From assembly GCA_016183025.1 (NCBI GenBank), contig JACPFL010000276.1, positions 17,354 through 52,813 of the forward strand: 35,460 nt of DNA. Reading direction: 5' to 3'. Every line of letters begins with the position of its first letter. Position 1 is the stretch's first letter. Positions 2,490 through 30,287 of the stretch are shown one piece after another. Source of the stretch: Deltaproteobacteria bacterium (GTDB taxonomy: Bacteria > Desulfobacterota > JACPFL01). Both the position numbers and the translations under genes were made by a program. The notes below the pieces were generated by a model. The model was given only the letters and a program-made list of their open reading frames with translations. It did no database searches and was not told the DNA's origin.

Positions 2490-2590
2490 CCGTCCTCCCG
2501 TCCGGTGAGGAATGCATCACACATGCCTGTGTCCCCGCCCCGATCCTCCTGACGTAAGGCCGCGATAGGAAAGGCGGACAGGAGGGCCAC

Positions 2591-2641
2591 CCCGACAGGC
2601 TGCCCGGAGACCTGACAAAACGCTCGGGAGTTGTCGGCAGG
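2591..2641 (-). repeat. Copy 1 of a composite intergenic element, upstream of the first oxidoreductase operon
   Basis: cccgacaggctgcccggagacctgacaaaacgctcgggagttgtcggcagg; shares CCCGACAG, GACCTGACAAAA(C/G)GCTCGG and TGTCGGCAGG with 26329-26376. Confidence 0.7.
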
Positions 2642-2719: not shown

Positions 2720-3853
2720 ATGCCTGATGAAGGGGCCTTGAGGCGAAGCGAGGGACGAACCGTGGAACGGAGAGGGAGCGAAGGTACGCCCGGTCTGCTG
2801 ACGCTCGACGGCGCCTACGGCGAGGGCGGCGGCCAGATCCTCCGCACGGCTCTCTCCCTGGCGGTCGCGCTCCGTCGCTCCGTAGCCCTGACCCGGATCC
2901 GGACCGGGCGGCCGAAGCCCGGGCTTCAGCCACAGCACCTGACCGTGGTCCGGGCCCTTGCCGCGATCAGTGACGCCAAGGTGGCTGGCGATGCGCTCGG
3001 CTCCACGGAGCTCAGCTTCACCCCGCGCACGCTCCAGGGCGGGAGCTACCGCTTCGATGTCGGGGCCATCAAAGGGAGCGCCGGGGCGGTGTCTCTCCTC
3101 TTCCAGGCCTTGCTCCTCCCGCTAGCCTTCGCCCCAACCCCGTCCCGCCTCACGCTCATCGGTGGGACCCATGTACCCTGGAGCCCGCCGGTCCACTACC
3201 TCACGGAGGTGTTTCTCCCGGCGCTCGGTCGGATCGGAGTGGAGGCGCAGCTCGCGCTCCATCGCTGGGGATGGTATCCGGCAGGTGGCGGAGAGGTCGA
3301 GGGGAGGATCATCCCTACCCGCGAGCTCCAGGGGTTCCGGCCCGAGGTGCACCAAGTCCACACATCGATCACCGGGCTCTCAGCGGTCTCCCGTCTGCCG
3401 CGCTCGATCGCGGAGCGTCAACGCCGGCGTGCTGAGGAGCGACTCTCGGCCGCCAGGGTCGTCGCCCGGATCTCCGTGCAGGAAGACACCACTGCTCGGA
3501 GCCCGGGGACGCTACTCTTCCTCGCCAAGCCTGGCAGGGCCGGGTTCCCTGCGCTCGGGCGCCGCGGGGTCACGGCCGAGCAAGTCGCCGACGAGGCGGT
3601 GGAGGGGCTCCTCGCCTATCTGGCCAGCGGCGCCGCAGTGGACGACCACCTGGCGGACCAGCTCGTGCCATTCCTTGCGCTCGGCCGGGAGGGCTCCGAG
3701 TTCACCTGCCCGACGCTCTCGCCCCACCTCCGGACGGTCGCGTGGGTCGTCCAGCAGTTCCTGCCCGTCCGGATCGAGCTGGCCGATGCTTACCCGGCAC
3801 GGGTCCGGATAATTCCGGGAGGGAGCGCGCCAGCCGAGGCCCGGAGAACCTGA
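2720..3853 (+). CDS. rtcA: RNA 3'-terminal phosphate cyclase
   Basis: LTLDGAYGEGGGQILRTALSLAVALRRSVALTRIRTGRPKPGLQPQHLTVVRAL...KGSAGAVSLLFQALLLPL...GGTHVPWSPPVHYLTEVFLPAL matches the RtcA family signature. The exact start codon is uncertain. Confidence 0.93.
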   Translation: MPDEGALRRSEGRTVERRGSEGTPGLLTLDGAYGEGGGQILRTALSLAVALRRSVALTRIRTGRPKPGLQPQHLTVVRALAAISDAKVAGDALGSTELSFTPRTLQGGSYRFDVGAIKGSAGAVSLLFQALLLPLAFAPTPSRLTLIGGTHVPWSPPVHYLTEVFLPALGRIGVEAQLALHRWGWYPAGGGEVEGRIIPTRELQGFRPEVHQVHTSITGLSAVSRLPRSIAERQRRRAEERLSAARVVARISVQEDTTARSPGTLLFLAKPGRAGFPALGRRGVTAEQVADEAVEGLLAYLASGAAVDDHLADQLVPFLALGREGSEFTCPTLSPHLRTVAWVVQQFLPVRIELADAYPARVRIIPGGSAPAEARRT

Positions 3854-5372: not shown

Positions 5373-6896
5373 TCAGGGATCACTCGCCGGACGTTGGTTG
5401 GTGAGCCCATAGCTCTTGAGTCGGTACTGCAGGGTGCGGAGGGCCATCCCCAGGCGCCTGGCGGCCAGGCGCCGGTTCCCTCCGGTCTCCTCGAGCGCCC
5501 GCAGGATGGCTGCCTTCTCGATCTCCTCCATGGTACCGGGCTGGGGCGTCGGTGCTGCCCCGGGGGAGCGGACTCCGAGCGCGAGGTTCTCCGGCTGGAT
5601 CTCCTCCCCCCGGGCGACGATCAGGGTGCGCTCAATTGCATGCTCCAGCTCGCGGACGTTCCCGGGCCAGGCGTACTCGAGCAGGGACTGGACCGTGGCC
5701 CTGGAGAGGCGGAGACCCTCGCGGTGATGGCGGGATGCCACCCGGGCCAGGAAGGTCGTGGCCAGCGGCAGGATATCCTCGCGACGCTCTCTGAGCGGCG
5801 GGAGGTGGATGGGGAACACCTTGAGGCGATAGTAGAGGTCCTCCCGGAACCCGCGCTCCAGCACCGCCTGCTCGAGGTCCCGGTTGGTGGCGGCCACGAG
5901 ACGGACGTCCACGCGGATCGTCCGCGTCCCGCCCACCCGTTCGAACTGGCGCTCCTGCAGTACGCGCAGGAGTCGCGCCTGGAGCGCCGGGCTCATGTCC
6001 CCCACCTCGTCGAGAAACAGCGTGCCCCCATCGGCTAGCTCGAAGCGCCCGCGTCGCTGGGCCACGGCCCCGGTGAAGGCGCCCCGCTCATGTCCGAACA
6101 GCTCGCTCTCCAGCAGGTTCTCCGGGATCGCCACGCAGCTCACCGGGATGAACGGCCGATCAGCCCGAGGGCTCAGCCCGTGGATGGCCCGGGCGATGAC
6201 CCCCTTGCCGGTCCCGCTCTGTCCGGTCATGAGCACGGTGGCCGTGGTCGGGGCCACCAGGCGGACCAGCTCCAGGACCTCCTGCATCGCTCGGCTGACC
6301 GCGATGATCGGCTCCGGCAGGCCGGGGATCGAGACCGTGGTCTCCCCTGCCTCGAGGCGGCGGCCGGCACGGCCGCTGGCGGGTGGCTGGGCCCGGGCCC
6401 AGATCCCGCGCGACCGGGAGTTCCCTTCCCTGACGGCTGCAGCGGCCGGTGGGGTCCCGGTCTGTCCCGGTGCCGCCGGGGAGTGCGGCCCCCCGGGGAG
6501 GTCCGACCGCGCGCTCGCCTGGGCTCGTTCTGTCAGGGCCTTGCGCACGAGGAGCCGCAGCTCCTCGGGGCTCCCGAGCGGCTTCAGCAGGTAGTCGTAC
6601 GCGCCCCGGCGCATCGCCTCCACGGCCGAGGGGATGGTGCCGTAGGCCGTCAGCAGGATCACCGTGGTCTCGGGGTGCAGGCTCTTCACCTGTTCCAGCA
6701 GGTCGAGCCCGGAGAGACCGGGCATCCTGAGGTCGGTGATGATCATGTCAGCCGGCGCCTCCCGGAGCGCTTCGAGCGCAGCCCCGCCGTCCCTTGCCTC
6801 CCGGACCTCGTAGCCGGCATCGCGGAGCACCCGGGAGAGGAGCAGGCGCATCGAGGCCTCATCGTCCACTACCAGAATCCGGATGCGCTCAGACAC
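5373..6896 (-). CDS. Sigma54-dependent response regulator (receiver - AAA+ - Fis-type HTH), ZraR/AtoC-like
   Basis: Receiver: ILVVDDEASMRLLLSRVL...DMIITDLRMPGLSGLDLL. AAA+: GQSGTGKGVIARAIH, ESELFGHERGAFTGAV, GGTLFLDEVGDM. C-terminal HTH: AAILRALEETGGNRRLAARRLGMALRTLQYRLKSYGL. Confidence 0.94.
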   Translation of the reverse strand: MSERIRILVVDDEASMRLLLSRVLRDAGYEVREARDGGAALEALREAPADMIITDLRMPGLSGLDLLEQVKSLHPETTVILLTAYGTIPSAVEAMRRGAYDYLLKPLGSPEELRLLVRKALTERAQASARSDLPGGPHSPAAPGQTGTPPAAAAVREGNSRSRGIWARAQPPASGRAGRRLEAGETTVSIPGLPEPIIAVSRAMQEVLELVRLVAPTTATVLMTGQSGTGKGVIARAIHGLSPRADRPFIPVSCVAIPENLLESELFGHERGAFTGAVAQRRGRFELADGGTLFLDEVGDMSPALQARLLRVLQERQFERVGGTRTIRVDVRLVAATNRDLEQAVLERGFREDLYYRLKVFPIHLPPLRERREDILPLATTFLARVASRHHREGLRLSRATVQSLLEYAWPGNVRELEHAIERTLIVARGEEIQPENLALGVRSPGAAPTPQPGTMEEIEKAAILRALEETGGNRRLAARRLGMALRTLQYRLKSYGLTNQRPASDP

Positions 6897-8223
6897 CCGC
6901 CTCCTCCTGAGCCGGAAGCGTCACGGCGAACCTGGTCCCCTGCCCTGGCACGCTCTGGACCGTGATCGTGCCGCCGTGCTGCTCCACGATCTGCCGCGCG
7001 ATGGCCAACCCCAGCCCGGTCCCTCGCGGCCGGCGGGTGAAGAAGGGCGAGAAGATCTGCGAGAGGTCGTCGGGAGAGATCCCCTCGCCCCGGTCCTTGA
7101 TGGTCACCACGACCGTGCCGGGTCGGCCTGCCCGAAGCACCTGCACGGCCAGCACTCCCCCGCGGGGCATGGCCTGCAGGGCGTTCACCATCAGGTTGGT
7201 GAAGACTTGCCGGAGTCGCTCGGCATCGCCTGGGATCGGGGGAAGGTCCCGGGCCCCTTCCCGGTGGATCAGGACCCCCACCGCCTGGGCCTCCGGCTGG
7301 AAGCGCGCCACCAGTTCGTCCAACAGCGCCTCCAGCTTGACCTCCCCCCGCTGGATCGGGCGAGGGCGGGCGTACTCGAGCAGGTCAGCCGCGAGCTGCT
7401 CCAGACGCCGCGCCTCCCGGACCATGGCCTCCGTGACCTCCGCGCTACCCGCCTCCCCGCCCTGCCGTTCATGCAGGTACTGGGCAAGCCCTTTCAGGGC
7501 CGCCAGCGGGTTGCGGATCTCGTGCGCCAGGACTGCAGCCATCTCCCCCAGCACGGCCAGGCGCTCCCGGCGGGCATGGGCCGCCTGCAGGGCGACGTAG
7601 CGGCGCAGGGTGAGCAGCTCGTACGCCGCCAGCACGCCCACCAGGAGCAGGAGCAGACCCACAATGAGGGCGTGGACCTCGGCCTCCCGGAGCACCCAGC
7701 GGGCGGCGCTCGTGTGGAGGGCCACCCGCAGGAAGCGGAGGTGGGTGGCCGCCGCATCCGGCAACCGCAGGGGGAGGGTCAGCTCGTAGACCTCCTCGCC
7801 GGTGCCGAGCAGCACCAGCTCGGTGATCGGCATGTGCGTCTGGCTGGCCCGCCGCACGCGCTCGTCCACCTGCCGCCGTCCCACCAGCTCGGGGTTGGAA
7901 TGGGCCAGGACCAGGCCGTCCCCTTCCAGGACCGCCATGTAGGCGAGGTCGCGGTCCTGCTGCGTGGCGACCAGGGTCTGGAGCGCTCGGGCATCCCGGG
8001 CGCCGAGGGCCGACAGGGAGGCTGCCAGCGTGCGGGCGCGCGTGAGGGCCTCGCGCTGCAGTCGATCTTCCACTACCCGGGAGGCGGTGCGGTAGGTCAA
8101 CACGGTGCTCACCGCGAGCGCCAGCCCTGCCAGCGCGACCAGCGCCACGACGCCCCGCACCGGGAATGCCCTCCGCCCGCTCTCCTCCGCCAGCCGATCC
8201 CGGCTGCGGGGTTCCGTTGACAC
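6889..8223 (-). CDS. Sensor histidine kinase (TM - periplasmic sensor - TM - HisKA - HATPase), ZraS-like
   Basis: GTG start at 8223 (VSTEPRSRDRL...). H-box MAAVLAHEIRNPLAALKGL; N box QVFTNLMVNALQAMP; G boxes KDRGEGISPDDLSQIFSPFFTRRPRGTGLGLAIARQIVEQHGG. Its stop overlaps the regulator start. Confidence 0.92.
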   Translation of the reverse strand: MSTEPRSRDRLAEESGRRAFPVRGVVALVALAGLALAVSTVLTYRTASRVVEDRLQREALTRARTLAASLSALGARDARALQTLVATQQDRDLAYMAVLEGDGLVLAHSNPELVGRRQVDERVRRASQTHMPITELVLLGTGEEVYELTLPLRLPDAAATHLRFLRVALHTSAARWVLREAEVHALIVGLLLLLVGVLAAYELLTLRRYVALQAAHARRERLAVLGEMAAVLAHEIRNPLAALKGLAQYLHERQGGEAGSAEVTEAMVREARRLEQLAADLLEYARPRPIQRGEVKLEALLDELVARFQPEAQAVGVLIHREGARDLPPIPGDAERLRQVFTNLMVNALQAMPRGGVLAVQVLRAGRPGTVVVTIKDRGEGISPDDLSQIFSPFFTRRPRGTGLGLAIARQIVEQHGGTITVQSVPGQGTRFAVTLPAQEEAGV

Positions 8224-8267
8224 GTCGTGCTCCGCGCTCGCCTGGCCGCCAGAGTGCCGGGGCCGGG

Positions 8268-9668
8268 TCAGAACCGGCCCCCCTGCGCCAGCTTCTCCAG
8301 GTCCAGCACTTCGTCCAGCGTCTCTGCGGTCAGCAGGCCGGCCTCCAGGATCGCCCGGCGGATGGGCTTGTCCTCCTCCAGGCACTTCTTGAAGATCTTG
8401 GCCGCGTTGTCGTACCCGATGGCCGGGGCCAAGGCCGTCACCAGCGCGGCGCTCCGCTCGGCGTACTCCCGGCACCGTTTGGCGTCGGCGGTGATCCCCC
8501 GGACGCACTTGTCGGCCAGGGCCTGCGCCGCGCGCCCCTCGATCTCGATGGACTCCAGGAGGTCGTAGGCGATGACCGGCATCATGACGTTCAGGTCGAG
8601 GTTGCCGTTGAGCCCGGCGATCGCGATGGCCGCATCGTTCCCGATGACCTGGGCCGCCACCATGTTCACCGCCTCCGGGATCACCGGGTTCACCTTCCCG
8701 GGCATGATGCTCGAGCCGGGCTGCGTGGCCGGCAGCTCGATCTCGGCCAGCCCGGTGCGCGGCCCCGACGTCAACAGGCGCAGGTCGTTGGCCATCTTCA
8801 TCAGACCGACGGCAATGGTCTTCAGCGTCCCTGAGGTCTGCACGCAGGCGTCCTTGTTCTGCATCGCCTCGAACAGGTTGGGCGCCCGGCGGAAGCGCAG
8901 CCCCGTCAAGGCGTTCAGCTCCTTGACCACCCCATCGGCGAACCCGGGGGCGGCGTTGAGCCCGGTCCCGAGCGCCGTCCCCCCGATCGGGAGCTCCGCC
9001 AGCTGCGATTTGGCCTGTTCCACGCGCTCGATCCCGTGCCGGATCACGCTCGCGTACCCCGAGAACTCCTGGCCGAGGGTGATGGGCACCGCGTCCTGGA
9101 GATGCGTGCGCCCTGACTTGACCACCCGGGCGAACTCCTGCGCCTTTCCCTCGAGCGCTTCGGCCAGCGCCCTGAGCCCGGGGAGCAGCGTGCGCTCGAT
9201 CGCCTCCATCGCGGCCACATGGATGGCCGTCGGGAAGACGTCGTTGGTCGACTGCCCCATGTTGACGTGGTCATTGGGGTGCACGGTCTTGTCGCCCCGC
9301 TTCCCCCCCAGCAGCTCGATGGCGCGGTTGCCGATGACCTCGTTGGCGTTCATGTTCGTGGAGGTGCCGGAGCCGGTCTGGAAGATGTCCACCACGAACT
9401 CGGTGTCCAGCCGCCCCTCGGCCACCTCCAGGGCCGCCTTCTCGATGCCCTCTGCCAGGCGATGATCCAGGAGTCCCAGGGCCCGGTTCGTCCGGGCGCA
9501 GGCCGCCTTGATCAGCCCCAGGGCCTTGATGAACCCCCGCTGGAAGCGCAGCCCGGAGATGGGGAAGTTCTCCACGGCCCGCGCGGTCTGCGCCGCGTAG
9601 TAGGCGTTGGCCGGCACCTGCATCTCCCCCATGCTGTCGCGCTCGATCCGATACCCCTTTTCCGCCAT
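8268..9668 (-). CDS. fumC: Class II fumarate hydratase
   Basis: MAEKGYRIERDSMGEMQVPANAYYAAQTARAVENFPISG...SGTSTNMNANEVIGNRA...GSSIMPGKVNPVIPEAVNMVAAQVIGND; fumarase signature GSSIMPGKVN. Confidence 0.97.
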   Translation of the reverse strand: MAEKGYRIERDSMGEMQVPANAYYAAQTARAVENFPISGLRFQRGFIKALGLIKAACARTNRALGLLDHRLAEGIEKAALEVAEGRLDTEFVVDIFQTGSGTSTNMNANEVIGNRAIELLGGKRGDKTVHPNDHVNMGQSTNDVFPTAIHVAAMEAIERTLLPGLRALAEALEGKAQEFARVVKSGRTHLQDAVPITLGQEFSGYASVIRHGIERVEQAKSQLAELPIGGTALGTGLNAAPGFADGVVKELNALTGLRFRRAPNLFEAMQNKDACVQTSGTLKTIAVGLMKMANDLRLLTSGPRTGLAEIELPATQPGSSIMPGKVNPVIPEAVNMVAAQVIGNDAAIAIAGLNGNLDLNVMMPVIAYDLLESIEIEGRAAQALADKCVRGITADAKRCREYAERSAALVTALAPAIGYDNAAKIFKKCLEEDKPIRRAILEAGLLTAETLDEVLDLEKLAQGGRF

Positions 9669-10194
9669 CGTCCCCTCCCCTGTCTCCCGATGTGGTCGGG
9701 CCTGTCGCGCACAAGCCCTGTCAACGGCTGAGGAAATGGTACCACGTCCGTCAATCCCGGAAAAATGTTGCAAGGGGGATGCCCCTCACCCTTCAAAGCC
9801 ATCACCCGGGCACAGGCAGGGGTTCCCGCGACCCCCGTCCGACCGTCTGGCCGCGAGGCAGCGAACATCCTGTCCGTGGCCTGACAGAATGCCGCCTCCG
9901 AGGAACCCGCACGAGCCCGGCGCGGAGCCCCTGCACTCTGCTCGTGCCGAGCGAGGCCCCGAAGACTTGGGACGTCTTCCGGCAACCCGGACCCTTCCGC
10001 CGCCAGAAATGGCAAGCGGTCCTGGCGTGGAGGAGTTCACTTCGCCACGGTGGCAAAAAGGCGACCGCCGCGAGCCAGATTGCGAAGCGCCACACCTCCC
10101 CATCAGACGGTCCGTCCTCAGGAACAGTTTTTGCTGACCTTCAACGTGTCCCCATACGCAAGGCGCAGGCCCGGCGCGCTTGGAGGAAGACGGG

Positions 10195-10585: not shown

Positions 10586-13500
10586 ATGAGCATCGATCGG
10601 AGGGACTTCCTGAAGGCGGCGGGCGCCGCGGCCGGCAGCCTGCTGCTCCCCGTCGGCGCGGAGGCGGCGGCCCAGGCCGCCCGTTTCCCACTCCACAAGC
10701 AAGTCATGGAAGGGCGGTCCATCTGCCCCTATTGCTCTGTCGGATGCGGCGTCATCATCGCCACGGACCAGGCGGGGCACGTGGTCAACACCGAGGGGGA
10801 TCCGGATCACCCCATCAACCGTGGGGCCCTGGACCCCAAGTCGGTGGCGATCACCCAGCTCTGCAACAGCCCCCTTCGGCTGAAGACGGTGCGGTACCGG
10901 GCGCCCGGGAGCGACCAGTGGGAGGACAAGCCGTGGGACTGGGCCCTCGGCGAGATCGCCAAGCGGATCAAGGCGACCCGCGATGCCACCTTCATCGCGA
11001 AGAACGCCCAAGGGGTCGCGGTCAACCGGACTGAAGCGATCGCCTGGCTGGGAGGCGCCGCCAACAACAACGAGGACTGCTACCTGGGCGCCAAGCTGAT
11101 GCGGGCCCTGGGGGTCGTCTACCTGGAGCACCAGGCCCGGATCTGACACTCCTCCACGGTGGCCGGTCTGGGCCCCACATTCGGTCGCGGCGCGATGACG
11201 AACCACTGGATCGACCTGAAGAACGCCGACGTCGTCCTCGTCATCGGCGGCAACCCGGCAGAGAACCACCCCGCCTCGATGCTCTGGGTCAACCGGGCCC
11301 GGGAGGAGCGAAAGGCCCGCCTCGTGGTGGTGGACCCCCGTCTGACCCGCACGGGCGCCCGGGCAGACCTCTATGCCCCCATCCGGAGCGGCACCGACAT
11401 CGTCTTCCTGGGGGGCCTCATCAACCACGCCATCCAGCGCCGCCTCTACAACGAGGAGTACGTCAAGGCGTACACCAACGCGCTGACGCTCGTTCATCCG
11501 CAGTACCGCGGGCCTGCCGAGCTGAATGGCGTCTTCTCCGGCTTCGACCCGAAGAAAAGGAGCTACAACCCTGAGACCTGGCAGTACCAGACGCGCACGG
11601 AGACTGTCACCGGCAAGCCGGTTACCCTCCCCAGGATGGCGGCAAGCCTCGACGACCCCCAGTGCGTCTTCGCCCACCTGAAGCGGCACTACGCCCGCTA
11701 TACCCCGGAGATGGTGGAACGGGTCTGCGGCACGCCAAAGGATCTCTTCCTCAAGGTCGCCGAGACCTTCTGCGCCACCGGGGAGCCCGGCAAAGCGGGG
11801 ACCATTCTCTACGCCATGGGCCAGACCCAGCACACGGTCGGCACGCAGAATGTCCGGGCCATGGCGATCCTCCAGCTCCTCCTGGGGAACGTCGGAATTC
11901 CGGGTGGCGGCGTCAACGCCCTCCGGGGCGAGTCCAACGTCCAGGGAAGCACCGACATGGCCCTGCTCTTCCACGACCTCCCGGGCTACCTCGGCTGCCC
12001 GACAGAGGCCCAGGCCGACTTCGCCAAGTTCACGGCCAAATGGGACACGACGAGCTTCTGGGCCAACGGGCCGAAGTTCTTCGTGAACCTGATGAAGGCG
12101 TGGTGGGGGGAGGCGGCCACGAAGGAGAATGACTGGGCGTACCACTACCTCCCCAAGGTCGGCGGGAACTACTCCTGGATTCCCCTCTTCGAGGCGCTCT
12201 ACACCGGGAAGATCAAGGGGCTGCTCGCCATGGGCCAGAATCCGGCCGTCTGTGGCCCCAACGCCCGGTTCGAGCGCAAGGCCCTGGGGAACCTCGACTG
12301 GCTGGTGGTGATGGAGCTGTTCGAGACCGAGACGTCCGCCTTCTGGCACGCGCCGGGCGTGGACCCCAAGACGATCAAGACCGAGGTCTTCCTGCTTCCT
12401 GCGGCCGATGCCATGCAGAAGGCCGGCAGCATCGTCACCAGCGGCCGGCTGATCCAGTGGCGGGACCGGGTGGCCGCCCCGCCCGGGGAGGCGAGAGAGG
12501 ACATCTGGATCCTGGACCGGATCTGCCGGACGCTCAAGGCCCTGTACAAGGGGAGCACGGCGGCCAAGGACCGACCGATCCTGGACCTGGTCTGGGATTA
12601 CGGCGATCCCCCCGAGGCCGGCCGCGTGGCCCGGGAGATCAATGGCTTCGCCCTGGGGGACGTGAAGGATAAGGACGGCAAGGTGCTGGTGGAGCCGGGC
12701 AAGACGATCCCCGGCCTGGCCGTGCTCGCGGCTGCGGCCGACCCGGGCACCATCGCCTGTGGCAACTGGCTCTATGCGGGCTACTTCCATCCGGCGGACG
12801 ACGGCACCGGCGTCGCCATGCCAGCAGCGAAGCGACGAGGGCTGAAGGACCCGGGCGGCCGCGGCATCTACCCCTACTGGGGGTGGGCGTGGCCGGCCAA
12901 CCGCCGGATCCTGTACAACCGCTGCTCGGCCCGGCCGGACGGCCGCCCCTGGAGCGAGGTGATGAGGCTCATCTGGTGGGACGCCGCGCAGAAGGAATGG
13001 GCGGGCTACGATGTCCCCGATTTCCCGCCCACCAAGGCGCCGGAGACCAGGGCCGATCCGGCTGGCACCGGGCTCGCCGCGCAGAGCGGGACCGACGCCT
13101 TCCTCATGAAGGCCGATGGCAAGGGGTGGCTCTTCTCCCCGAAGGGGCTCACGGACGGCCCCCTGCCAGAGCACTACGAGCCCCTGGAGTCCCCCATCCG
13201 TAACCCCCTCTCCCGCGTCCAGGTCAACCCTGTAGTCAGGGTCTGGGAGACCGATAAGGACAAGGAGGTGGGGGACCGGGTCGGGGCGGCGGAGCAATTC
13301 CCCATCATCTGCACCACGTACCGGCTCACGGAGCACTTTCAGGCCGGGGCCATGTCGCGCACCCTGCCGTGGCTGGCCGAGACCCAGCCGGAGATGTTCG
13401 TGGAGATCAGCAAGGAGCTGGCGGCCGAGAAGCGGATCAAGAACGGCGACCGCGTGATCGTCACCTCGGCCCGGGGCCGGATTCGCGCCGTGGCCATGGT

Positions 13501-13693
13501 CACGGGCCGCTTCAAGCCCTTCCGCGTGGACGGCAAGCTCGTGCACCACATCGGGATGCCGTGGCACTACGGCTGGGTCGGGCTTGCCACCGGCGACAGC
13601 GCCAACGACCTGACCCCGCACGTGGGCGACGCCAACACCATGATCCCGGAGTACAAGGCGTTCCTGGTGGACCTCCGGAAGGCGGAGGTGTGA
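10586..13693 (+). CDS. fdhA: Respiratory formate dehydrogenase alpha subunit, selenocysteine-containing (in-frame TGA at 11144-11146), Tat-exported
   Basis: ORFs 10484..11146 and 11159..13693 are in the same frame, separated only by TGA: ...[49 protein letters not shown]. Tat motif RRDFLK; [4Fe-4S] motif CPYCSVGCG. Confidence 0.95.
11144..11178 (+). promoter_or_regulatory. UGA(Sec) codon plus bacterial SECIS-like hairpin
   Basis: TGA (11144-11146), 18-nt spacer, stem GTGGCC (11159-11164), loop GGTCTG (11165-11170), 3' arm GGCCCCAC (11171-11178; 2-nt bulge). The loop resembles the E. coli fdhF/fdnG SECIS apical loop. Confidence 0.85.
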
Positions 13694-13694
13694 G

Positions 13695-14489
13695 ATGGCC
13701 AAGGTCGCGATGCTCGTCGACACGACCCTCTGCACGGGCTGCCGAGGGTGCCAGGTGGCCTGCAAGCAGTGGTGGGACCTGTCCGCCGAGGTCACAGGGA
13801 ACCGGGGGAGCTATGAAAATCCGCCGGACCTCTCCCACAGCACCTGGACCCGCGTGACCTTCCACGAGGTGGAGGATGGCCGGGGCCTGCAGTGGTATCA
13901 CCTGGCGTGGGGGTGCGTGCACTGCACGGAGGCCGCCTGTGTGGACGTTTGTCCCACCGCGGCCCTGAAGTACCATCCGCTCGGGTTCGTCTCGCTGGAG
14001 CGGGACCTCTGCAACGGGTGCGGCTACTGCCTGACCGCCTGCCCGTTCGACATCCCCCAGCTGGAGAGCAACGTCCTGACCGGGCGGGGGAAGGCCACCA
14101 AGTGCAACCTCTGCCAGGACCGGGTGACCGAGGGCCTCATCCCGGCCTGCGTCAAGACCTGCCCGCCCGGGGCCATCCGCTTCGGGGACCGGCAGCAGAT
14201 GGTGACCCTGGGGCGGACCCGGGCGGCAGCCCTGCAGGAGCAGGGCTTCGCCGAGGCCAGCCTGTACGGCCCGGAGTTGCTGGGCGGGCTGGGACGGATG
14301 TTCGTGCTGGCGGCGCGCCCGGCGAAATACGGCCTGCCCGAGCGCCCCACCTACCCCCTCGCGGTGACCCTCTGGCAACGGCTCTTCCAGCCCCTGGGGC
14401 AGCTCGGGGTCCTCGCCACCGTCTTCGGCCTGGCCGCCAACTGGGTGGTGACGCGGCGGCTTCGAGGGAAGAAGAAGGAGGAGGTGTGA
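13695..14489 (+). CDS. fdhB: Formate dehydrogenase iron-sulfur (beta) subunit with C-terminal TM helix
   Basis: CTGCRGCQVACKQW...CVHCTEAACVDVCPTAAL...CNGCGYCLTACPFDIP...CNLCQDRVTEGLIPACVKTCPPGAI; C-terminal hydrophobic helix. Confidence 0.93.
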   Translation: MAKVAMLVDTTLCTGCRGCQVACKQWWDLSAEVTGNRGSYENPPDLSHSTWTRVTFHEVEDGRGLQWYHLAWGCVHCTEAACVDVCPTAALKYHPLGFVSLERDLCNGCGYCLTACPFDIPQLESNVLTGRGKATKCNLCQDRVTEGLIPACVKTCPPGAIRFGDRQQMVTLGRTRAAALQEQGFAEASLYGPELLGGLGRMFVLAARPAKYGLPERPTYPLAVTLWQRLFQPLGQLGVLATVFGLAANWVVTRRLRGKKKEEV

Positions 14490-14490
14490 G

Positions 14491-15165
14491 GTGAACGGAC
14501 GAGCGATCTCCCGCTTCACGGCCGGCGAGCGGCTCTTTCACTGGGTGTACTTCGTGGCGTTCCTCACGCTCGCTACCACCGGCGCCTTCCTCTATCTCCC
14601 CTGGTTCTCCTTCGCCATCGGCGAGTCGGGCGAAACGAGCCGGCTCCTCCACCGCCTCTTCGCCCTGCTGCTCCTCGCCGTGCCGATCCTGACCCTGATC
14701 GTCTCCCCGAAGGAGTTCCGCGCAGACCTTCGGGAAGGGCTCACGTGGCGGGCTGAGGACCGGCGGGCGCTCCGGGTGCTGCTGACGCGCTACTACTGGA
14801 CAGGCGATCCGGCGGGCCTGCCCCCGCAAGGGAAGTTCACGGCCGGGCAGAAGCTGAACATCGGGCTACAGATCCTGGCCTTCGCCGTCATGGCCGTGAC
14901 CGGGCTCCTGCTGTGGTTCGGTCGAGGACTCCTGCCTGTGGGACTCCTCCGGTGGAGCCTGATCCTGCACGGCGGGGCGGCCGTCGCGGCAACCTGCTTC
15001 GTCCTCGTCCACATCTACATGGTGACCCTCCTGCCCATGACCAACCAGGCCATCGCCTCCATGTTTCTGGGCACAGTCTCGGAGGAACATGCCCTGACGC
15101 ACCATCCGAAGTGGTACGAGGCCCTGGTGCGGCGGCGGATGAGCCGGGCGGAGCGGAGGGGATGA
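14491..15165 (+). CDS. fdhC: Formate dehydrogenase cytochrome b556 (gamma) subunit
   Basis: RFTAGERLFHWVYFVAFLTLATTGAFLYLPWF...KLNIGLQILAFAVMAVTGLLLWFGRGLL...LHGGAAVAATCFVLVHIYMV; membrane heme b subunit pattern. GTG start at 14491. Confidence 0.9.
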   Translation: MNGRAISRFTAGERLFHWVYFVAFLTLATTGAFLYLPWFSFAIGESGETSRLLHRLFALLLLAVPILTLIVSPKEFRADLREGLTWRAEDRRALRVLLTRYYWTGDPAGLPPQGKFTAGQKLNIGLQILAFAVMAVTGLLLWFGRGLLPVGLLRWSLILHGGAAVAATCFVLVHIYMVTLLPMTNQAIASMFLGTVSEEHALTHHPKWYEALVRRRMSRAERRG

Positions 15166-16016
15166 TGGGGCAGGACGCCGAGGTCCCGCTCCGGCTGCGG
15201 GAAGAGCGAGAGCAGAGGGCTGATCTGGCCCGGACCCTGGATCTGCACCTCGCCCTGCTGGCGGCCAGGGCGGAGGTGGCCGTTCGGGTGCCGGCTGACT
15301 GGCCCGAGCATGCTTGGTCCCGGCTCCAGCAAGGTGAGCCGGCCCTGTGCCTCGACGAGCTCGAGCTGGACTGGGAGGCGGTCGTCCGGCTGGCCAGAAC
15401 GGTCTGCCACATTCTGGCGCGCCAGGAGCCAGCGCGCTCTCCTGCCCTCGCCCGTATCGCCTCCCGATTCGATGAGGCCGCGCTCAGTCCCAAAGGCGTG
15501 CAAGCCCTGGTCGTCCGGTACCTGGCAGACCACGACGGGGGCGGACTCCCGGAGCCAGGCGTGGACCCGGCGCTCTTCGGCTTCGTGCTGAATCAGGCGC
15601 TTCACCCCTTTCTCCAGGCGTATGCGGCCGTCGCGGCGCCGTTGCTCGAACAGGAGCGCTGGCTCCGGGGACGGTGCCCCGTGTGCGGCGGCCATCCTGA
15701 CTTCGCCGCCCTGGAGGGTGAGGTCGGCGAGCGCCGGCTGCTCTGTGCGCGTTGCGACAGCGAATGGGCCTACCGGCGACTCGGGTGCCCCTTTTGTGGC
15801 AACGAGGACCCCGGGGGCCTGGGCTACTTCCCCACCGGAGACGGCGCCTACCGCCTCTACGTCTGCGAGCAGTGCAAGGGGTACCTGAAGACGGTTGACC
15901 TCAGGGAGACCTGGCGCAGGCGGTCCCTGCCCGTCGAGCGGATCCTGACGGTGGGGATGGATCTGGCTGCGGCGGAGCAGGGATATCGCAGGGCCACGGG
16001 ATCCCGCCCGGATTAG
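15162..16016 (+). CDS. fdhE: Formate dehydrogenase accessory protein FdhE
   Basis: GRCPVCGGHPDFAALEG...RRLLCARCDSEWAYRRLGCPFCGNEDPGGLGYF...YRLYVCEQCKGYLKTVDLRE. ATGA overlap with fdhC. Confidence 0.93.
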   Translation: MMGQDAEVPLRLREEREQRADLARTLDLHLALLAARAEVAVRVPADWPEHAWSRLQQGEPALCLDELELDWEAVVRLARTVCHILARQEPARSPALARIASRFDEAALSPKGVQALVVRYLADHDGGGLPEPGVDPALFGFVLNQALHPFLQAYAAVAAPLLEQERWLRGRCPVCGGHPDFAALEGEVGERRLLCARCDSEWAYRRLGCPFCGNEDPGGLGYFPTGDGAYRLYVCEQCKGYLKTVDLRETWRRRSLPVERILTVGMDLAAAEQGYRRATGSRPD

Positions 16017-16065
16017 GCTCTCGACGCGGACGGCAGTCCAGATCTGCTCGTGGTCGGCCCGGACC

Positions 16066-17190
16066 TCAGGTGGACACCGCGATGAGGTGGATGACGTCCT
16101 TCATGCTGAGGTAGCCCACGAGCCGCCCGTCCTCCACGACGGCCAGCCGTCCCAGGCCGTTCCGTGAGAGCTTCTCGAATGCCTCCCAGAGCGAATCCCC
16201 GGGGGTTGCCATCAGTGGCCCGGCCAGCGGGAGCATGAGATCCCGAACCGGGGTCTCGGCCCATCGCTCGCGGGGGACCTCCTTGAGCTGGCGGAGGCTG
16301 ATAATGCCGACCACCCGCCCGCCGTCAAGAACCGGGAAGCTCGACACGTGGTGCGCCCAGAAGAACTCCTCCACGAGATGCGCCACCGAGAGGTCAGTGG
16401 GGACATGGATCACCTCGGAGGTCATCGCGTCGCGGACCGAGAGGCGGCCGAGGACGCGCTGGAGCAGGAGCTGCTGATAGCTGCCCTCGGCGGCCTGGCG
16501 CAGGAACAGGCCGATGAGGACGAACCACAGCCCGCCCAGAAATTCCCCCGAGAGCGCCCGGAAGACCCCCGCGCCGATCAGCAAGAACGCGAAGACCGAG
16601 CCAGCGAGGCTCGCCATCCGGCTCGCCCAGGCGAGGTCCCCCTTCACCTTCCACAGGAGGGCGCGGAGCAGGCGCCCGCCGTCCAGCGGGAATCCCGGGA
16701 CGAGATTGAACGCCCCGACCAGGACGTTCACCAGGACCAGATAGCGCATGATGGCCGCCGGCGCCTCCGGCGGCCCGAGGAGGGCATAGGCCAGGGCGAC
16801 GACTGCCGCGATGGCGAAGCTCGTGAGCGGCCCGACGACCGCGACCGCGATCTCCACCCCGGGACGCTCTGGCTCGCGCTCCAGCTGGGAGACCCCCCCG
16901 AAGACGTGGAGCGTGATCCCAGAGACCGGGATCCCGCAGCGGCGCGCCACCACCGAGTGGGAGAGCTCGTGAAGCAGGACCGAGACGAACAGGAGCAGGG
17001 CGGCCAGCAGCCCGCTCGCCCAGTGGGCCAGAAGCGGCAGGTCCGGGAGCCGCTCGGGAAAGTAGCCGACCGACAGGCTCCAGGCGATGAGCCCGAAGAT
17101 CACGAGCCAGCTCACGTGAACCCGCACCGGGATCCCCCAGATCCGGAAGATCGTCGCGACGCCCTCCCTTGGCGGCCCTGCCCCCTTCAT
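16066..17190 (-). CDS. Site-2-protease-type (M50) membrane metalloprotease with tandem CBS domains
   Basis: LLFVSVLLHELSHSVVARRCGIPVSG (HExxH), NLVPGFPLDGGRLLRALLW, then a CBS pair VRDAMTSEVIHVPTDLSV...VRDLMLPLAGPLMATPGDSLWEAFEKL. Confidence 0.93.
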   Translation of the reverse strand: MKGAGPPREGVATIFRIWGIPVRVHVSWLVIFGLIAWSLSVGYFPERLPDLPLLAHWASGLLAALLLFVSVLLHELSHSVVARRCGIPVSGITLHVFGGVSQLEREPERPGVEIAVAVVGPLTSFAIAAVVALAYALLGPPEAPAAIMRYLVLVNVLVGAFNLVPGFPLDGGRLLRALLWKVKGDLAWASRMASLAGSVFAFLLIGAGVFRALSGEFLGGLWFVLIGLFLRQAAEGSYQQLLLQRVLGRLSVRDAMTSEVIHVPTDLSVAHLVEEFFWAHHVSSFPVLDGGRVVGIISLRQLKEVPRERWAETPVRDLMLPLAGPLMATPGDSLWEAFEKLSRNGLGRLAVVEDGRLVGYLSMKDVIHLIAVST

Positions 17191-17276: not shown

Positions 17277-17999
17277 GTGACGGTCCGCATCGGCACGTCC
17301 GGCTGGGTCTACAGCCACTGGCGGGGGATCTTCTACCCGAAGGATCTCCCCCAGCGCGCCTGGTTCGCCCACTACGCGGGCGAGTTCGACACCGTCGAGA
17401 TCAACAACTCGTTCTACCGGCTCCCGAGCCCGGCCACGTTCACCGCATGGCGGGAGCAGGCGCCCCAGGGGTTCCTGTACGCCGTCAAGGCCAGCCGTTT
17501 CCTCACACACTTGAAGAAGCTGAAGGACCCCGAGGGACCGCTCCAGCTCTTCTTCGAGCGGGCCGATCACCTGGGCAAGGCCCTCGGCCCCGTGCTCTAT
17601 CAGCTCCCGCCGCACTGGCAGGTCAACCTGGCGCGCCTGGAGCCCTTCCTGGCCGCTCTGCCGAAGCGCCGATCGCACGTCATCGAGTTCCGCGATGCGA
17701 GCTGGCTGAACGAAGAGGTCTTCCGCCTGATGGAGCGCTACCACGTCGCCCATTGCATCCACGATCTGCGGCCGCTCGACGTCCCCCTTCGCGTGACCGC
17801 GCCGCTTGTCTACCTGCGCTTCCACGGTGGCCAGACCCATAGCGGCGACTACCCGCGCGCGGCCCTCGAACGATGGGCCAGGAGAATCGAGGGCTGGCGG
17901 CGCGAACGACTCGACGTCCTCGTCTACTTCAACAACGATGTCGGCGGGTACGCCGTCAACGATGCGAGGGCGCTCAGAAGCCTGCTCGCTTCGCCTTGA
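17277..17999 (+). CDS. DUF72 family protein
   Basis: VRIGTSGWVYSHWRGIFYPKDLPQRAWFAHYAGEFDTVEINNSFYRLPSPATFTAWREQAPQGFLYAVKASRFLTHLKKL...VLVYFNNDVGGYAVNDA. Confidence 0.93.
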   Translation: MTVRIGTSGWVYSHWRGIFYPKDLPQRAWFAHYAGEFDTVEINNSFYRLPSPATFTAWREQAPQGFLYAVKASRFLTHLKKLKDPEGPLQLFFERADHLGKALGPVLYQLPPHWQVNLARLEPFLAALPKRRSHVIEFRDASWLNEEVFRLMERYHVAHCIHDLRPLDVPLRVTAPLVYLRFHGGQTHSGDYPRAALERWARRIEGWRRERLDVLVYFNNDVGGYAVNDARALRSLLASP

Positions 18000-18600
18000 A
18001 GCGCTTGAGCCTGACAATGTCCTCCCGCTCCCGCTCTTCGAGCGCGAGCGCGATCCGTGTCATCTCCTGCTCCAGGCGAGGGATCAGGAACTCCTCCAGG
18101 GCGTTGATCCGCCGGGAGGTCTTCTGGATCTGTTCCCCCAGACGCCTGAGGCGGATCTCCCGGGAGCAGATGGTGAGCAGGATCTCCAGGACCTCCTCAT
18201 GGCGCCGGGCCGCCTCGGCGGCCCCCAGCCCCCAGCCGACAGGGGAAGTGCCCCGGGCGTCGTGAGAGCGGAGGAGCCTCGGCCCCGTCACCTCGGGCGT
18301 GGGAACCCCCCAGACCTTTCGCTGCTCGATCTCCACGGGGATCTCCCTGGCTGCGGCCAGGGCCAGGGAGCCCAGGACCTCCTCCCCTTCCAGGGCCCTG
18401 GCCAGCGTCAAGACCCTGCTCGCCTCACGGAGGCTCTCCTCCAGTCGTTCCCTTCCGGCGATGACCCCCCGCATGAGGCGAAAGAATTCGTTGGCGAGGG
18501 CCTCGCGCTTCCCCCGGAGGAGCCCGGCCCCCTTGACCGCGATCTGCCGCCTACCCCGGATGCTCAGGAGCCCCATCCGTGTGGCGGGGACCTGCTCCAT
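17974..18600 (-). CDS. atpD: V/A-type ATPase subunit D
   Basis: [36 protein letters not shown]...[40 protein letters not shown]. Confidence 0.92.
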
Positions 18601-19981
18601 CTCCTCCTCCTTCCGTCCGGTAGCGCTCGATCAGGGACCGCTTGATCCTGGTCAGGGCCTCCACAGGGAATGCCCTGAGCAGGCGCCAGCCGATGGCCAG
18701 GGTCTCCTCGATGGGCCGCCCCCCGCTGCCCTGCCGGAGGAACTCCGCCTCGAAGCGGTCGGCGAACGTCAAGAAGACCCGCTCCTCCGCGCCGAGCCCG
18801 CCCTCCCCCACGATCGCCTCCATGCGCCTCACGTCCCGCCCCCGCGCGTAAAAGGCGTAGAGCTGGTCCGCCAGGGCCCGGTGATCCTCCCGGGTGCGGC
18901 CCTCCCCGATCCCCAGATTCATGAGGCGTGACAGCGAGGGGAGCACGTCCACGGGGGGGAAGATCCCCTTCCGGTCCAGCTCCCTGGAGAGCACGACCTG
19001 CCCCTCGGTGATGTATCCGGTGAGGTCGGGGATCGGGTGCGTGATGTCATCGTCCGGCATCGTGAGGATGGGGAGCTGGGTGATCGAGCCCTGGCGGCCG
19101 TGAATCTTGCCCGCCCGCTCGTAGAGGCTGGCGAGATCGGTGTACATGTAGCCGGGATAGCCGCGGCGCCCGGGGATCTCCTCCCGCGCCAGGGCCACCT
19201 CCCTGAGCGCCTCGCAGTAGTGGGTCATGTCGGTCAGGATCACCAGGACGTGCATCCCGTGCGTGAAGGCCAGGAACTCCGCGGCCGTGAGCGCGCAGCG
19301 GGGGGTCATGAGCCGCTCGATGGTGGGGTCGTCGGCCAGGTTGAGGAAAACCACGGTCCGGTCCTGGGTCCCAGAGCCCTCGAAGACCTTGAGGTAGTAG
19401 TCCGCCTCGCGGAAGGGGATCCCGATGGCGGCGAAGACCACACAGAACGGCTCCCCGCCCCGGACCTGGGCCTGCCGGACAATCTGGGCCGCCAGCGAGT
19501 GGGCCGGCAAGCCCGCGCCCGAAAAGATGGGGAGCTTCTGCCCGCGGACCAGGGTATTGAGGCCGTCGATGGCGGAGACCCCGGTCTGGATGAACTCGGA
19601 TGGCTTCTCCCGCCTGACGATGTTGATGGCCGAGCCGGTGATGGGGAGGGTCGTCTCGGGGATCACGGGCGGGAGGCCGTCAAGGGGCTGGCCGATCCCG
19701 TTGAAGGTCCGCCCCAGCATCTGTCTGGAGACCGGCAGGGTCGCCACCTCACCGGCGAAGATGACCTCGGTCCGTGCCGGGCAGATCCCCTGCGTCTCCT
19801 CCAGCACCTGGATCACCGCGTGGGTCTCGGAGAGCTCGATGACCTGCCCCCGGCGCTCCTGCTCCCCCTCGAGGCGGATCCGGACGATCTCCCCCAGCCG
19901 GGCCCGCCGCGCCCCCTCCACGAAGAGGAGCGGGCCGGCGATCGCGGTGGTCGACCGTGAGATGCGGGTGACGAGGTCCAT
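18551..19981 (-). CDS. atpB: V/A-type ATPase subunit B
   Basis: [19 protein letters not shown]...[45 protein letters not shown]...[19 protein letters not shown]. Confidence 0.96.
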
Positions 19982-19984
19982 CCC

Positions 19985-21727
19985 TCAGCTCCCCCTGAGC
20001 CGCTTCAGGGTTTCATCGATCTCGGTCATGAGCGCGCTCCCGATCGTCTCCATCTCGCCCGGGGGGACCTCGCCGAGCCGGAGGAGCCGCTCGTCCAGCC
20101 TGGTCTCCAGGATCGCCGCGAGGGACACGCCTTCGCTCAGGCTCCGGGCGGCGCTCCAGGAGAAGTGGAGGAGCAGACGGAGCATCCAGAGCGCCTTGCC
20201 GGGCGGGCAGGAGGCATCCACTTCGTGAAAGGCGCTCTGGCGGAGGAACCCTTCACGGAGGAGCCGGGCCGACTCGATGACGATCCGCTCTTGGTCCTGG
20301 ATCGCCTCCAGGCCGACCAGCTGCACGATCTCCTGGAGCTCCCGCTCCCGCTGGAGCAGGCGCATGGCCTCCTCCCTGAGGGCCACCCACTCCGCCCCGG
20401 CCTCCCGCGCGAACCACTCCTGGAGGCGTTCGGCGTAGAGGGTGAAGCTCTGGGCCCAATCGATGGCCGGGAAGTGACGACGATACGCGAGGTCCGTGCT
20501 GAGGGCCCAGAGGGCGCCCGTGACCCGGAGGGAGGCCTGGGTGACCGGCTCCGAAAAGTCCCCGCCAGGAGGAGAGACCGCCCCCACGACCGTGACCGCG
20601 CCCTCCCCGTCACCGCCGAGCGGGACGACCCGGCCGGCACGCTCGTAGAATTGTCCCAGGCGCGTGGCGAGGTAGGTCGGATAACCTTCCTCTCCGGGCA
20701 TCTCCTCCAGGCGGGAGGAGACCTCGCGGAGCGCCTCGGCCCAGCGGGAGGTGCTGTCGACCGTGAGGGCCACGTGATAGCCCATGTCTCTGAAGTACTC
20801 GGCGATGGTGATCCCCGTGTAGATGGAGGCCTCCCGGGCCGCCACGGGCATGTTGGAGGTGTTGACCACCAGGACTGTCCGGTCCATGAGCGGGGCCCCG
20901 GTCCGGGGGTCCTCCAGATGCGGGAAGTCGCTCAGGACCTCGCTCATCTCGTTCCCCCGCTCTCCGCACCCCACGAAGACAATCACGTCCGCCGCGGCGA
21001 ACTTGGCCAGGGTCTGCTCCAGCACGGTCTTCCCCGTTCCGAAGCCGCCCGGGATGATGGCGGTGCCTCCCGCCGCGATGGGGAAGAAGCAGTCCAGGAC
21101 CCGTTGGCCCGTGAGGAAGGGCAGCTCGGGGGTGAGCCGACGCCTGAACGGGCGTCGCCGCCTGACCGGCCAGCGCTGGAGCATAGAGAGCTGGCGGCCG
21201 TCTTCCAGCACCACCACCGGATCGGTCACCGCCGCCTCACCCGGCTTCACCTCCCTGATCGTGCCGGACACGCCCGGCGGGACCAGGATCCGATGGGCGA
21301 GGCCTGCGGTCTCTCGGACCACCCCTATGATCTGTCCTTCAGTGAGTCGATCACCTGTGGCCACCTTCGGCTCGAATCGCCAGCGCTTCTGCCGATCCAG
21401 CGCTGGATGGGCGATCCCCCTGCGGAGAAAGTCCCCTGCCAGGGCGGCCAGCGCCGGGAGCGGACGTTGGATCCCATCGAAGATCTGCCCCAGCAGCCCC
21501 GGTCCCAGCTCCACCGTCAGCGGCTCGCCGGTGCTGACCACGGGTTCCCCCAGGGCCAGGCCGGTGGTCTCCTCGTACACCTGCAGGGTCGCCAGCGCTC
21601 CCCGAATCCGGATGATCTCCCCCATGAGCCTTTCGTGCCCCACGCGTACCACCTCGTTCAGCCCCGCCTCCTCCAGGCCATTGGCCACGACCGCGGGACC
21701 CGAGATCTTCACGATCCGTCCGTCCAT
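19985..21727 (-). CDS. atpA: V/A-type ATPase catalytic subunit A
   Basis: [16 protein letters not shown]...[42 protein letters not shown]...[68 protein letters not shown]. Confidence 0.97.
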
Positions 21728-21733
21728 CGCTCC

Positions 21734-22066
21734 CTACCGTTGGATCTTCACGTGGTAGCCGATCGCCCGCCGGATGAGCGCGGCCACGTACTCCTCCCCG
21801 CGACCTACCTCCCCCCACCGCCTCGGCAGGCTGAAGGGGAGCAGGACCGGGAACCCCTCACGGCCGATCCGCTCCAGCAGAGGCTCGGGCACCCGGCCCA
21901 GGACTTCCTCCTCCACGGCCAGGACGCCCAGACTGGGGTCCGCCAGGAGAGCCGTGAAGCGCTCCGCCACCTCGCCCTCCTCCACCTCCTCAACCGCCAC
22001 CCCCGCCAGCCGGAACCCGAGCCCCTCGCCAGGGCGGGTGACCACCTTGAACCAGTAGCGACCCAT
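21734..22066 (-). CDS. atpF: V/A-type ATPase subunit F
   Basis: GEGLGFRLAGVAVEEVEEGEVAERFTALLADPSLGVLAVEEEVL; positioned between C and A. Confidence 0.85.
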   Translation of the reverse strand: MGRYWFKVVTRPGEGLGFRLAGVAVEEVEEGEVAERFTALLADPSLGVLAVEEEVLGRVPEPLLERIGREGFPVLLPFSLPRRWGEVGRGEEYVAALIRRAIGYHVKIQR

Positions 22067-23116
22067 CTACCGCTCGATGAGGTCGAGGAGTTCATCGGCC
22101 GGGAGGCCGAACTCCGTCGCCCTGAGGACCAGCCGGATCCGCCTCACCTCCGCTTGCCGCTCGAGCATGAAGGCCAGGGGGACCGCCAGCGAGAGGGGGT
22201 GGACTCTGGCCTCCCGCCGCATGGCCTCTCCGAGGGCCCGATGGAGGAGCTGGTCCGCCATGAAGGGATCGCCGAGCTTCCGCATCGTGATGGCCCCTGA
22301 AGCGAAGTAGCGCCGACCTTCCCGCGCGAGGGTCTCGCGGAGCTCCGGCTCTCCCAGCACGGCGCACTGCCGGAAGCGGTCGGCGCTCATGAGCCGGCCG
22401 CCGGGGATGAAGAACTCCTGTCCTCCTCCCACGCCGGCCAGCTTGAGCAGGGTCCCGGCATTGGCGAGGTCGATCTGGGCCTTGAGGAATCCCAGGAGGA
22501 TCCGGCCATCTTCGCCATCCCTCCTGGCTGCCTCAAGGGCCTGCGTGAAGAGGCAGCGATCCAGGGCCACCTCCAGGGAGAGCAGGTCGCGCCGGCGCTG
22601 GTACGCCGGCAGCGCCTCCTGGAGCGGGAGGGCGTGGGGGCTGCGCCACGTGGCCAGGAGATCGACCACGCCCTTCACCTCCCGCTGCCCGACCAGCTCT
22701 TGCAGCCCTCGCTCATCGAGGCCCGGCGTGGGGACGAGGAGCAGGAAGGTTCGCTCGGGCGGTTCCCCCCGGACGGTCCCGCGCAGGATCGTCTTGAGGT
22801 TCCAGCCGTCCTCAAAGGCCAGGATCGCCCGGAGCAGGGATCGGACCCGCTCCCCGCGCAGGAAGCGGTCGATCCGAATGAGGTCGTCGGTGAGCTTGAC
22901 CCTGAGCCCCCGCTCGGCGCCCTGCAGGGGATCGGACACTCTTCCGAGGTACGGAGCCAGGGCGTCACCGTAGTCGGTCTTCATCAGGAAGTCGAGCCTG
23001 GCTGTGAGCCCCGGCTGGGCCAGCAGCTCCAGGATCCCCTTGTGGCCCAGGAGCCGACCCTTCATCCCCTTCACCCGGGCGTTGGCGTAGTCACACCCCG
23101 CCATCGCCTTCTCCAA
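22067..23116 (-). CDS. atpC: V/A-type ATPase subunit C
   Basis: CDYANARVKGMKGRLLGHKGILELLAQPG...DLIRIDRFLRGERVRSLLRAILAFEDGWNLKTILRG; C/d-subunit pattern. A start at 23104 (MAGCDY) is also possible. Confidence 0.88.
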   Translation of the reverse strand: MEKAMAGCDYANARVKGMKGRLLGHKGILELLAQPGLTARLDFLMKTDYGDALAPYLGRVSDPLQGAERGLRVKLTDDLIRIDRFLRGERVRSLLRAILAFEDGWNLKTILRGTVRGEPPERTFLLLVPTPGLDERGLQELVGQREVKGVVDLLATWRSPHALPLQEALPAYQRRRDLLSLEVALDRCLFTQALEAARRDGEDGRILLGFLKAQIDLANAGTLLKLAGVGGGQEFFIPGGRLMSADRFRQCAVLGEPELRETLAREGRRYFASGAITMRKLGDPFMADQLLHRALGEAMRREARVHPLSLAVPLAFMLERQAEVRRIRLVLRATEFGLPADELLDLIER

Positions 23117-23687: not shown

Positions 23688-23689
23688 GG

Positions 23690-23908: not shown

Positions 23909-23925
23909 CTCCGTCCTCCCTTCCC

Positions 23926-26165: not shown

Positions 26166-26328
26166 TGCGAGATGGCCCCTCACCAACGGCCGAGTCACAC
26201 GACGGCCGCCCTATCCGCGGTCCCCCTTCGACCCCCCTCGCGCGGAAGGGTTGCATCGGGGATGCCCGGTGTCTCCTCCAGATTTCTATGGCGCCAAGCG
26301 GAGGTGGCGGGGAGCGATGCGGCCCACA

Positions 26329-26701: not shown

Positions 26702-26728
26702 CCCGTCCTCCCCTTGCCCGCGTCCCCT

Positions 26729-28193: not shown

Positions 28194-28201
28194 GTGCCCT
28201 C

Positions 28202-30274: not shown

Positions 30275-30287
30275 GGCGTCCCTTCCC

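Follow-up and report, generated by a model that had tools for sequence, protein, structure and literature searches.

Upstream of two minus-strand operons, one for a 2-oxoacid:ferredoxin oxidoreductase and one for a V/A-type ATPase, an intergenic block of about 50 bp is found in similar form, and this locus raises the question whether the block is an operator defining a regulon or a small dispersed repeat. An earlier note on this DNA had left room for both; the sigma-54 promoters, the further members and the regulator gene in the window do not figure in it. The window, by which the whole analysed stretch of 35,460 nucleotides is meant, corresponds to positions 17354-52813 of contig C83 in a draft genome of 3.68 Mb and 308 contigs, and its right end is the end of the contig. 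An operator is now strongly favoured; palindrome pairs like those of the block recur beside same-strand sigma-54 promoters at operons without the remaining sequence. Judged from the sequence, the block can be read, with a probability of roughly 0.85, as a tandem enhancer (UAS) of sigma-54-dependent promoters for an activator of the NtrC type, most likely the one encoded at 5373-6896.

The Shared Block and Its Copies

Two copies of the block were confirmed, at 2591-2641 and at 26329-26376, each consisting of CCCGACAG, then GACCTGACAAAA(C/G)GCTCGG and then TGTCGGCAGG. Reading of the sequence bore out that both are intergenic, in like orientation and located upstream of minus-strand operons. In a local alignment, the two intergenic regions reached a score of 40.5, compared to 15.1 +/- 2.3 with a maximum of 25.5 for 300 dinucleotide-shuffle pairs. 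The similarity exceeds the block as first described: it covers ~160 bp in total, ~100 bp of which lie beyond the block, and ends at TGCATC-N4-ATGCC.

With a sequence model built from these two copies (R1), a third copy was identified in the same genome, on contig C235 (G000:C235:3094-3248), which has the same geometry and was scored with E = 1.3e-32 by a three-copy model (R2). At E < 1e-30, R2 returned exactly three long copies, with no other convincing match. In all three, the distance from TGCATC-N4-ATGCC to CCTGACAAAA is exactly 98 bp (positions 2513 and 2611 in copy 1, 26252 and 26350 in copy 2, 1423 and 1521 in the L146 numbering of copy 3). Conserved across the copies are CCGACAG-N-CTGTCRG, CCTGACAAAA and a downstream -24/-12 motif. 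Identity among the three amounts to 39-57% between the blocks versus 82-85% in the enhancer block, and the invariant columns are clustered (p = 0.003, three copies). As to the symmetry ascribed to the block, the spacing of the YYGACA half-sites holds as claimed, with 20 bp in copy 1 and 21 bp in copy 2; the outer CCGACA...TGTCGG inverted repeat, which had been stressed as well, is not an essential part, since copy 3 lacks GCTCGG and TGTCGGCAGG.

The position of the third copy relative to the window can be judged from the gene for a P-type cation ATPase, one part of which is at the end of C83 (window 34627-35460) and the other at the start of C235 (2-2050 in the L148 numbering used for this contig). 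The reading frame that leaves the window at 35460 with ...VVMVTGDYG resumes in frame on C235 with DAPALKAADIGVAMG..., and therefore C235 very probably adjoins C83, across a gap of ~250 bp. Joined in this way, they would place the three long copies within ~39 kb and in one orientation. Homology to malic enzyme begins ~50 bp downstream of copy 3, right after an in-frame stop; the fragment of 157 amino acids (L148 2565-3038, minus strand) is devoid of the N-terminal part, so that a 5' deletion or a misassembly would account for it. At L148 3305-3320 on the minus strand, a very strong -24/-12 match, TGGCATTTCCCTTGCT, is followed by a Shine-Dalgarno sequence and the ATG of a short open reading frame which crosses the enhancer of the third copy.

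Predicted Sigma-54 Promoters and Paired Sites in the Window

On the minus strand, the partner found at 98 bp reads AGGCATGTGTGATGCA in copy 1, GGGCATCCCCGATGCA in copy 2 and GGGCATCGCCGATGCA in copy 3, and the GG-N10-GC spacing of sigma-54 promoters is present in each. The published sigma-54 consensus is TGGCAC-N5-7-TTGCT (PMC12316311); copies 1-3 differ from it in the -12 box, with ATGCA in place of TTGCA. The enhancer sites have the form of a 15-bp imperfect palindrome, SNGACAR-N-YTGTCNS, and are located 19-23 bp apart with 4-8 nt between the sites. In copies 1-3, the right half of the second palindrome is degenerate.

Copy 1 contains the palindrome CCGACAGGCTGCCCG at 2592-2606, the site CTGACAAAACGCTCG at 2612-2626, 20 bp apart from it, and an extra half-site, TGTCGGCAGG, at 2632-2641, all on the minus strand. 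Its predicted promoter AGGCATGTGTGATGCA (2513-2528, minus strand), which is among the four top-scoring -24/-12 sites of the window, would start transcription near 2502, followed by the Shine-Dalgarno sequence GGGAGG and an ATG at 2489. This ATG opens the por-type 2-oxoacid:ferredoxin oxidoreductase operon (370-2489), in which a gamma/delta subunit with Fer4 (1587-2489) and a PorA-type alpha subunit (370-1752) are encoded and which runs on out of the window. A gene for an RNA 3'-phosphate cyclase (2720-3853, plus strand) is divergent from copy 1. In E. coli, the rtc genes are under sigma-54 control; in the copy 1 region, no plus-strand -24/-12 site was seen for the cyclase gene.

In copy 2, the sites CCGACAGAGTGTCAG (26330-26344) and CTGACAAAAGGCTCG (26351-26365) are 21 bp apart, and the predicted promoter GGGCATCCCCGATGCA is located at 26252-26267 on the same minus strand. 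The V/A-type ATPase operon behind it (17974-26198, minus strand) codes for G, I, E, C, an open reading frame in the F position, A, B and D, and its first ATG is probably at 26165. With its counterpart in Anaeromyxobacter oryzisoli, the A subunit (19985-21727) shares 67% identity, more than with any other named match, which suggests a horizontal exchange.

The first copies yielded a promoter pattern, GGCAYNNNNNRTGCA, and a palindrome pattern, CYGACAGNCTGTCRG, and the window was searched with each of them separately. Besides copies 1 and 2, the two patterns come together at 9769/9839-9881, at 31207/31352-31374 and at 31787/31904-31923, in each case in intergenic DNA and on the minus strand; a further meeting at 8156/8246 is probably coding and was not counted as a member. 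Six meetings were observed in the window, compared to a mean of 0.34 and a maximum of 4 in 500 dinucleotide shuffles, and promoters with two spaced sites numbered three, versus none in all 500 shuffles.

The first of these additional promoters, GGGCATCCCCCTTGCA (9769-9784, minus strand), is preceded by three sites within 9839-9895, at 9839-9853, 9862-9876 and 9881-9895 (CTGACAGAATGCCGC). It belongs to an operon for a two-component system, the first gene of which codes for a lyase of the aspartate ammonia-lyase/fumarase family (8268-9669, minus strand) with its ATG at 9669 behind GGGAGGGGACG; a kinase and a regulator gene are also part of this operon. The second, TGGCACACACGGTGCA (31207-31222, minus strand), has a UAS at 31352-31388 consisting of two sites (31352-31366 and 31374-31388) 22 bp apart. 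It precedes a minus-strand operon (26516-31211) for Usp (30288-31211), PorG (29684-30331), PorA (28202-29569) and PorB (27216-28193), with a hibernation factor plus cold-shock domain (26729-27247) and a zinc ribbon protein (26516-26701) as distal genes. The third, TGGCATGGTTGGTGCT (31787-31802, minus strand), stands before a small zinc-ribbon open reading frame (31428-31754), and its UAS (31904-31937) is formed by CGGACAGCTTGTCAG at 31904-31918 and CCGACAGGTTGCCGC at 31923-31937, 19 bp apart.

A site matrix (PWM) identified six pairs at these five promoters and none in 40 shuffles; 55-130 bp downstream of each pair, a -24/-12 site reaches a score of 9.0 or more. The pattern test is the fairer of the two, since some of these sites had gone into the matrix. 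On a consensus score (TGGCAC-N5-TTGC with invariant GG-N10-GC), the five promoters reach 9.2-10.4, and the top four -24/-12 sites in the window, with weights taken from the literature consensus, are four of the five that adjoin a UAS. The site centres lie at about -107, -109, -106.5, -174 and -144.5 relative to the predicted starts, which are located near 2502, 9758, 26241, 31196 and 31776 on the minus strand. Tandem dyad sites roughly 80-200 bp upstream, on the non-gene side, are characteristic of sigma-54 promoters with an enhancer, and the centres found here fall within this range.

Occurrence in the Genome and in Other Members of the Phylum

The genome was scanned by pattern and by sequence model. 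The dual-site pattern GACARNNTGYCNGN{5,10}GACAR gave seven matches and the reversed control none. Five of the seven are known copies or window sites, and the other two are located on contigs C50 and C115. For the C50 match, a -24/-12 site, TGGCATACAGGTTGCG, was identified downstream. The C115 match (G000:C115:7146-7169) is a good palindrome pair with no good -24/-12 site nearby; it is close to a gene for a multihaem cytochrome. Outside the window on C83, pairs at 4820 and 9123 lie in front of -24/-12 sites that belong to two Usp genes and to a CBS-CBS-Usp gene; the pair at 9123 had been left out of matrix building. On C235, a gene for a phosphoribosyltransferase is preceded by a pair at 14752 whose -24/-12 site is weaker. 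In the genome-wide motif scan that had been proposed in the earlier note, the matches are concentrated at these putative sigma-54 promoters.

In 394 other genomes of the phylum, the dual-site pattern was found at most four times per genome, usually once or not at all, and matches to the long element were at noise level (best 5e-4, 395 genomes). Footprinting upstream of the KorA and V-ATPase genes of phylum-level relatives, which include no genome of the same class, gave no matching sites. The element is absent from the relatives compared, all of which are related at the phylum level. The draft genome contains no 16S rRNA gene. On C83, a CDC48-like protein with two AAA domains and a CDC48 N-terminal domain is encoded (13415-16057 in the L192 numbering), here in a bacterial host.

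The Candidate Activator

The genome contains a single rpoN (one Sigma54_DBD on contig C154, E 1.3e-62) and about 18 full Sigma54_activat domains. One of these activators is encoded in the window at 5373-6896 on the minus strand. The protein consists of a receiver (Response_reg), an AAA+ domain with GAFTGA (Sigma54_activat) and a Fis-type HTH (HTH_8), the composition of the NtrC family; the nearest NCBIfam models are AtoC, NtrC and ZraR, none of which is reached at the equivalog cut-off. The adjacent gene (6889-8508, minus strand) codes for a membrane sensor histidine kinase with HisKA, HATPase_c and a weak match to periplasmic sCache_3, resembling ZraS/AtoS in its core, and its true start is probably near 8235. 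Because it is placed within the cluster, the local regulator was chosen among the activators of the genome, and its position makes it the one most likely to bind the enhancers.

The same sigma-54 enhancer architecture might instead be served by another NtrC-type activator of this genome, which is considered unlikely, but has to be weighed seriously. The large number of activators leaves ample choice, no specificity residues are known for this motif, and the enhancer also occurs on C50, where no regulator was recognised in the examined part of the contig. Against this, the regulator at 5373-6896 is the only activator within the cluster, a strong -24/-12 site and an enhancer of three sites precede its own operon, and every pair on C83 faces the same way around it.

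Other Readings of the Block

That the block is a small mobile or dispersed repeat of the MITE/REP kind, present by chance in three copies upstream of operons, is very improbable. Three copies that can be aligned over ~160 bp, all within ~39 kb if C83 and C235 are joined, the hairpins at both ends and the truncated malic enzyme next to copy 3 would suit such a repeat. However, only three long copies were found by R2, all of them intergenic and co-oriented with the genes rather than numerous and independent of orientation, and their identity is concentrated in the functional blocks. Moreover, the recurrence of palindrome pairs with -24/-12 sites at unrelated promoters without the remaining sequence already largely refutes a mobile repeat. 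A duplication of the promoter region could be the reason why copies 1-3 can be aligned.

Just as little weight can be given to an ordinary operator of a repressor or of a sigma-70 activator recognising CCGACA/TGTCGG. Palindromic half-sites are what such a protein would recognise, and a spacing of two helical turns exists in some operators; yet no sigma-70-type promoter was identified in either intergenic region, and the distance of ~107-174 bp together with the coupling to GG-N10-GC fits enhancers. Terminators were not found in either region. An ECF-type promoter, considered for TGTC...TGTC at 20-21 bp, was dropped after the -24/-12 motif had been recognised, because the TGTC interval differs by 1 bp between the copies and no other ECF features are present. 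A CooA/CRP-type site was also dropped, as the central spacing is variable.

That the minus-strand transcripts carry a structured RNA leader, such as a riboswitch or an attenuator, can be dismissed almost entirely. The inverted repeats in the block and a best folding z-score of -2.0 (copy 2) speak for it; against it stand whole leaders folding no better than shuffles (z +1.2 and -0.3), the lack of an Rfam family match, no convincing covariation in alignment folding, and a predicted sigma-54 start near 2502, which would leave the block untranscribed from that promoter.

Proposed Mechanism and Function

For the block as a sigma-54 enhancer, the following course of events is proposed. The membrane kinase (6889-8508) would phosphorylate the response regulator (5373-6896), dimers of which would bind side by side to the palindromes; at 19-23 bp, or about two helical turns, these sites lie on the same face of the DNA. 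The bound dimers would then assemble into an active ring which, by looping of the DNA from enhancer centres at about -107 to -174 relative to the predicted start, could contact the RNA polymerase-sigma54 waiting at the GG-N10-GC promoter, and ATP would be spent by the ring to open this promoter-bound complex. The operon of the regulator has the same enhancer and promoter, which would result in positive autoregulation.

The predicted regulon would occupy the minus strand of one region of ~65 kb. Among its products would be the V-type ATPase, two 2-oxoacid:ferredoxin oxidoreductases and an aspartase/fumarase, along with a ribosome-hibernation factor and with proteins of the universal stress and CBS types. 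Besides the two blocks of the earlier note, at least three more enhancers in the window and four in neighbouring contigs would take part in it. Since ferredoxin oxidoreductases, aspartase/fumarase, V-type ATPase, Usp, CBS and the hibernation factor are among the targets, the inducing state may be low oxygen or low energy. Only tentatively, the whole can be seen as an undescribed NtrC-type two-component system which senses low energy or oxygen and, via a new enhancer, switches one block of ~65 kb jointly to ferredoxin-based carbon metabolism, use of the V-type ATPase, ribosome hibernation and stress survival. This would make it a sigma-54 counterpart of the hypoxia/dormancy regulons that includes a rotary ATPase.

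A sequence similarity is thereby turned into a regulon map, in which a candidate for the regulator, together with its sensor, is joined to an enhancer matrix and to no fewer than seven additional promoters, all of them predicted. If the map is true, operons for a V-type ATPase and for pyruvate/2-oxoacid:ferredoxin oxidoreductases are under sigma-54 control and, going by the gene set, regulons of the hypoxia/dormancy kind may have been built on differing types of regulators across phyla.

Comparison to Known Systems

The predicted system can be classed as a sigma-54 enhancer-promoter regulon, a type already known, in which the motif and the target set are new. The domain order, the GAFTGA loop and tandem palindromic enhancers about 100-170 bp upstream are common to NtrC, ZraR and AtoC; the enhancer sequence and the target genes differ from those of these systems. 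A literature search for the enhancer motif found nothing, and in a limited search no paper with a V-type ATPase in this kind of regulon was found.

The closest functional parallel is NmpRSTU of Myxococcus xanthus (PMC11841059). Common to it and to the predicted system are an NtrC-like regulator, two dyad enhancer sites at a preferred spacing, a sigma-54 promoter downstream and the regulator genes within the regulon. The likeness extends to the NmpR targets, among which are a P-type ATPase, hemerythrin and proteins of the universal stress and CBS types; the NmpR regulon is induced by hypoxia, and its authors compare it with the hypoxia regulons of other bacteria (PMC11841059). However, the NmpR enhancer is GCGCA-N5-TGCGC with sites 14-15 nt apart (PMC11841059), whereas SNGACAR-N-YTGTCNS with 4-8 nt between the sites was found here. 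In the NmpR system, sensing involves a heme kinase and a hybrid kinase. Here it would fall to a single membrane kinase, in which, apart from HisKA and HATPase_c, only a weak sCache_3 match was found, and no heme-binding protoglobin as in NmpU. Because enhancer sequence and sensor differ, the system was not filed as NmpR. In addition, the V-type ATPase and the 2-oxoacid:ferredoxin oxidoreductases are predicted targets here and are not listed for NmpR.

The lxa locus of Burkholderia cenocepacia and the DosR regulon of Mycobacterium tuberculosis are also hypoxia-induced, with different regulators that are not known to be of the sigma-54-enhancer type. Universal stress, CBS, P-type ATPase and phosphoribosyltransferase genes are partly shared with them, a likeness of gene content alone. 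The C235 neighbourhood also contains hemerythrin and nitrate-reductase-like genes, and together with the predicted targets these recall the regulons of low-oxygen response. The cluster in the window further encodes, at 16066-17190, an M50 peptidase of the membrane that carries two CBS domains, and the combination of an M50 peptidase with CBS domains is also known from hypoxia regulons.
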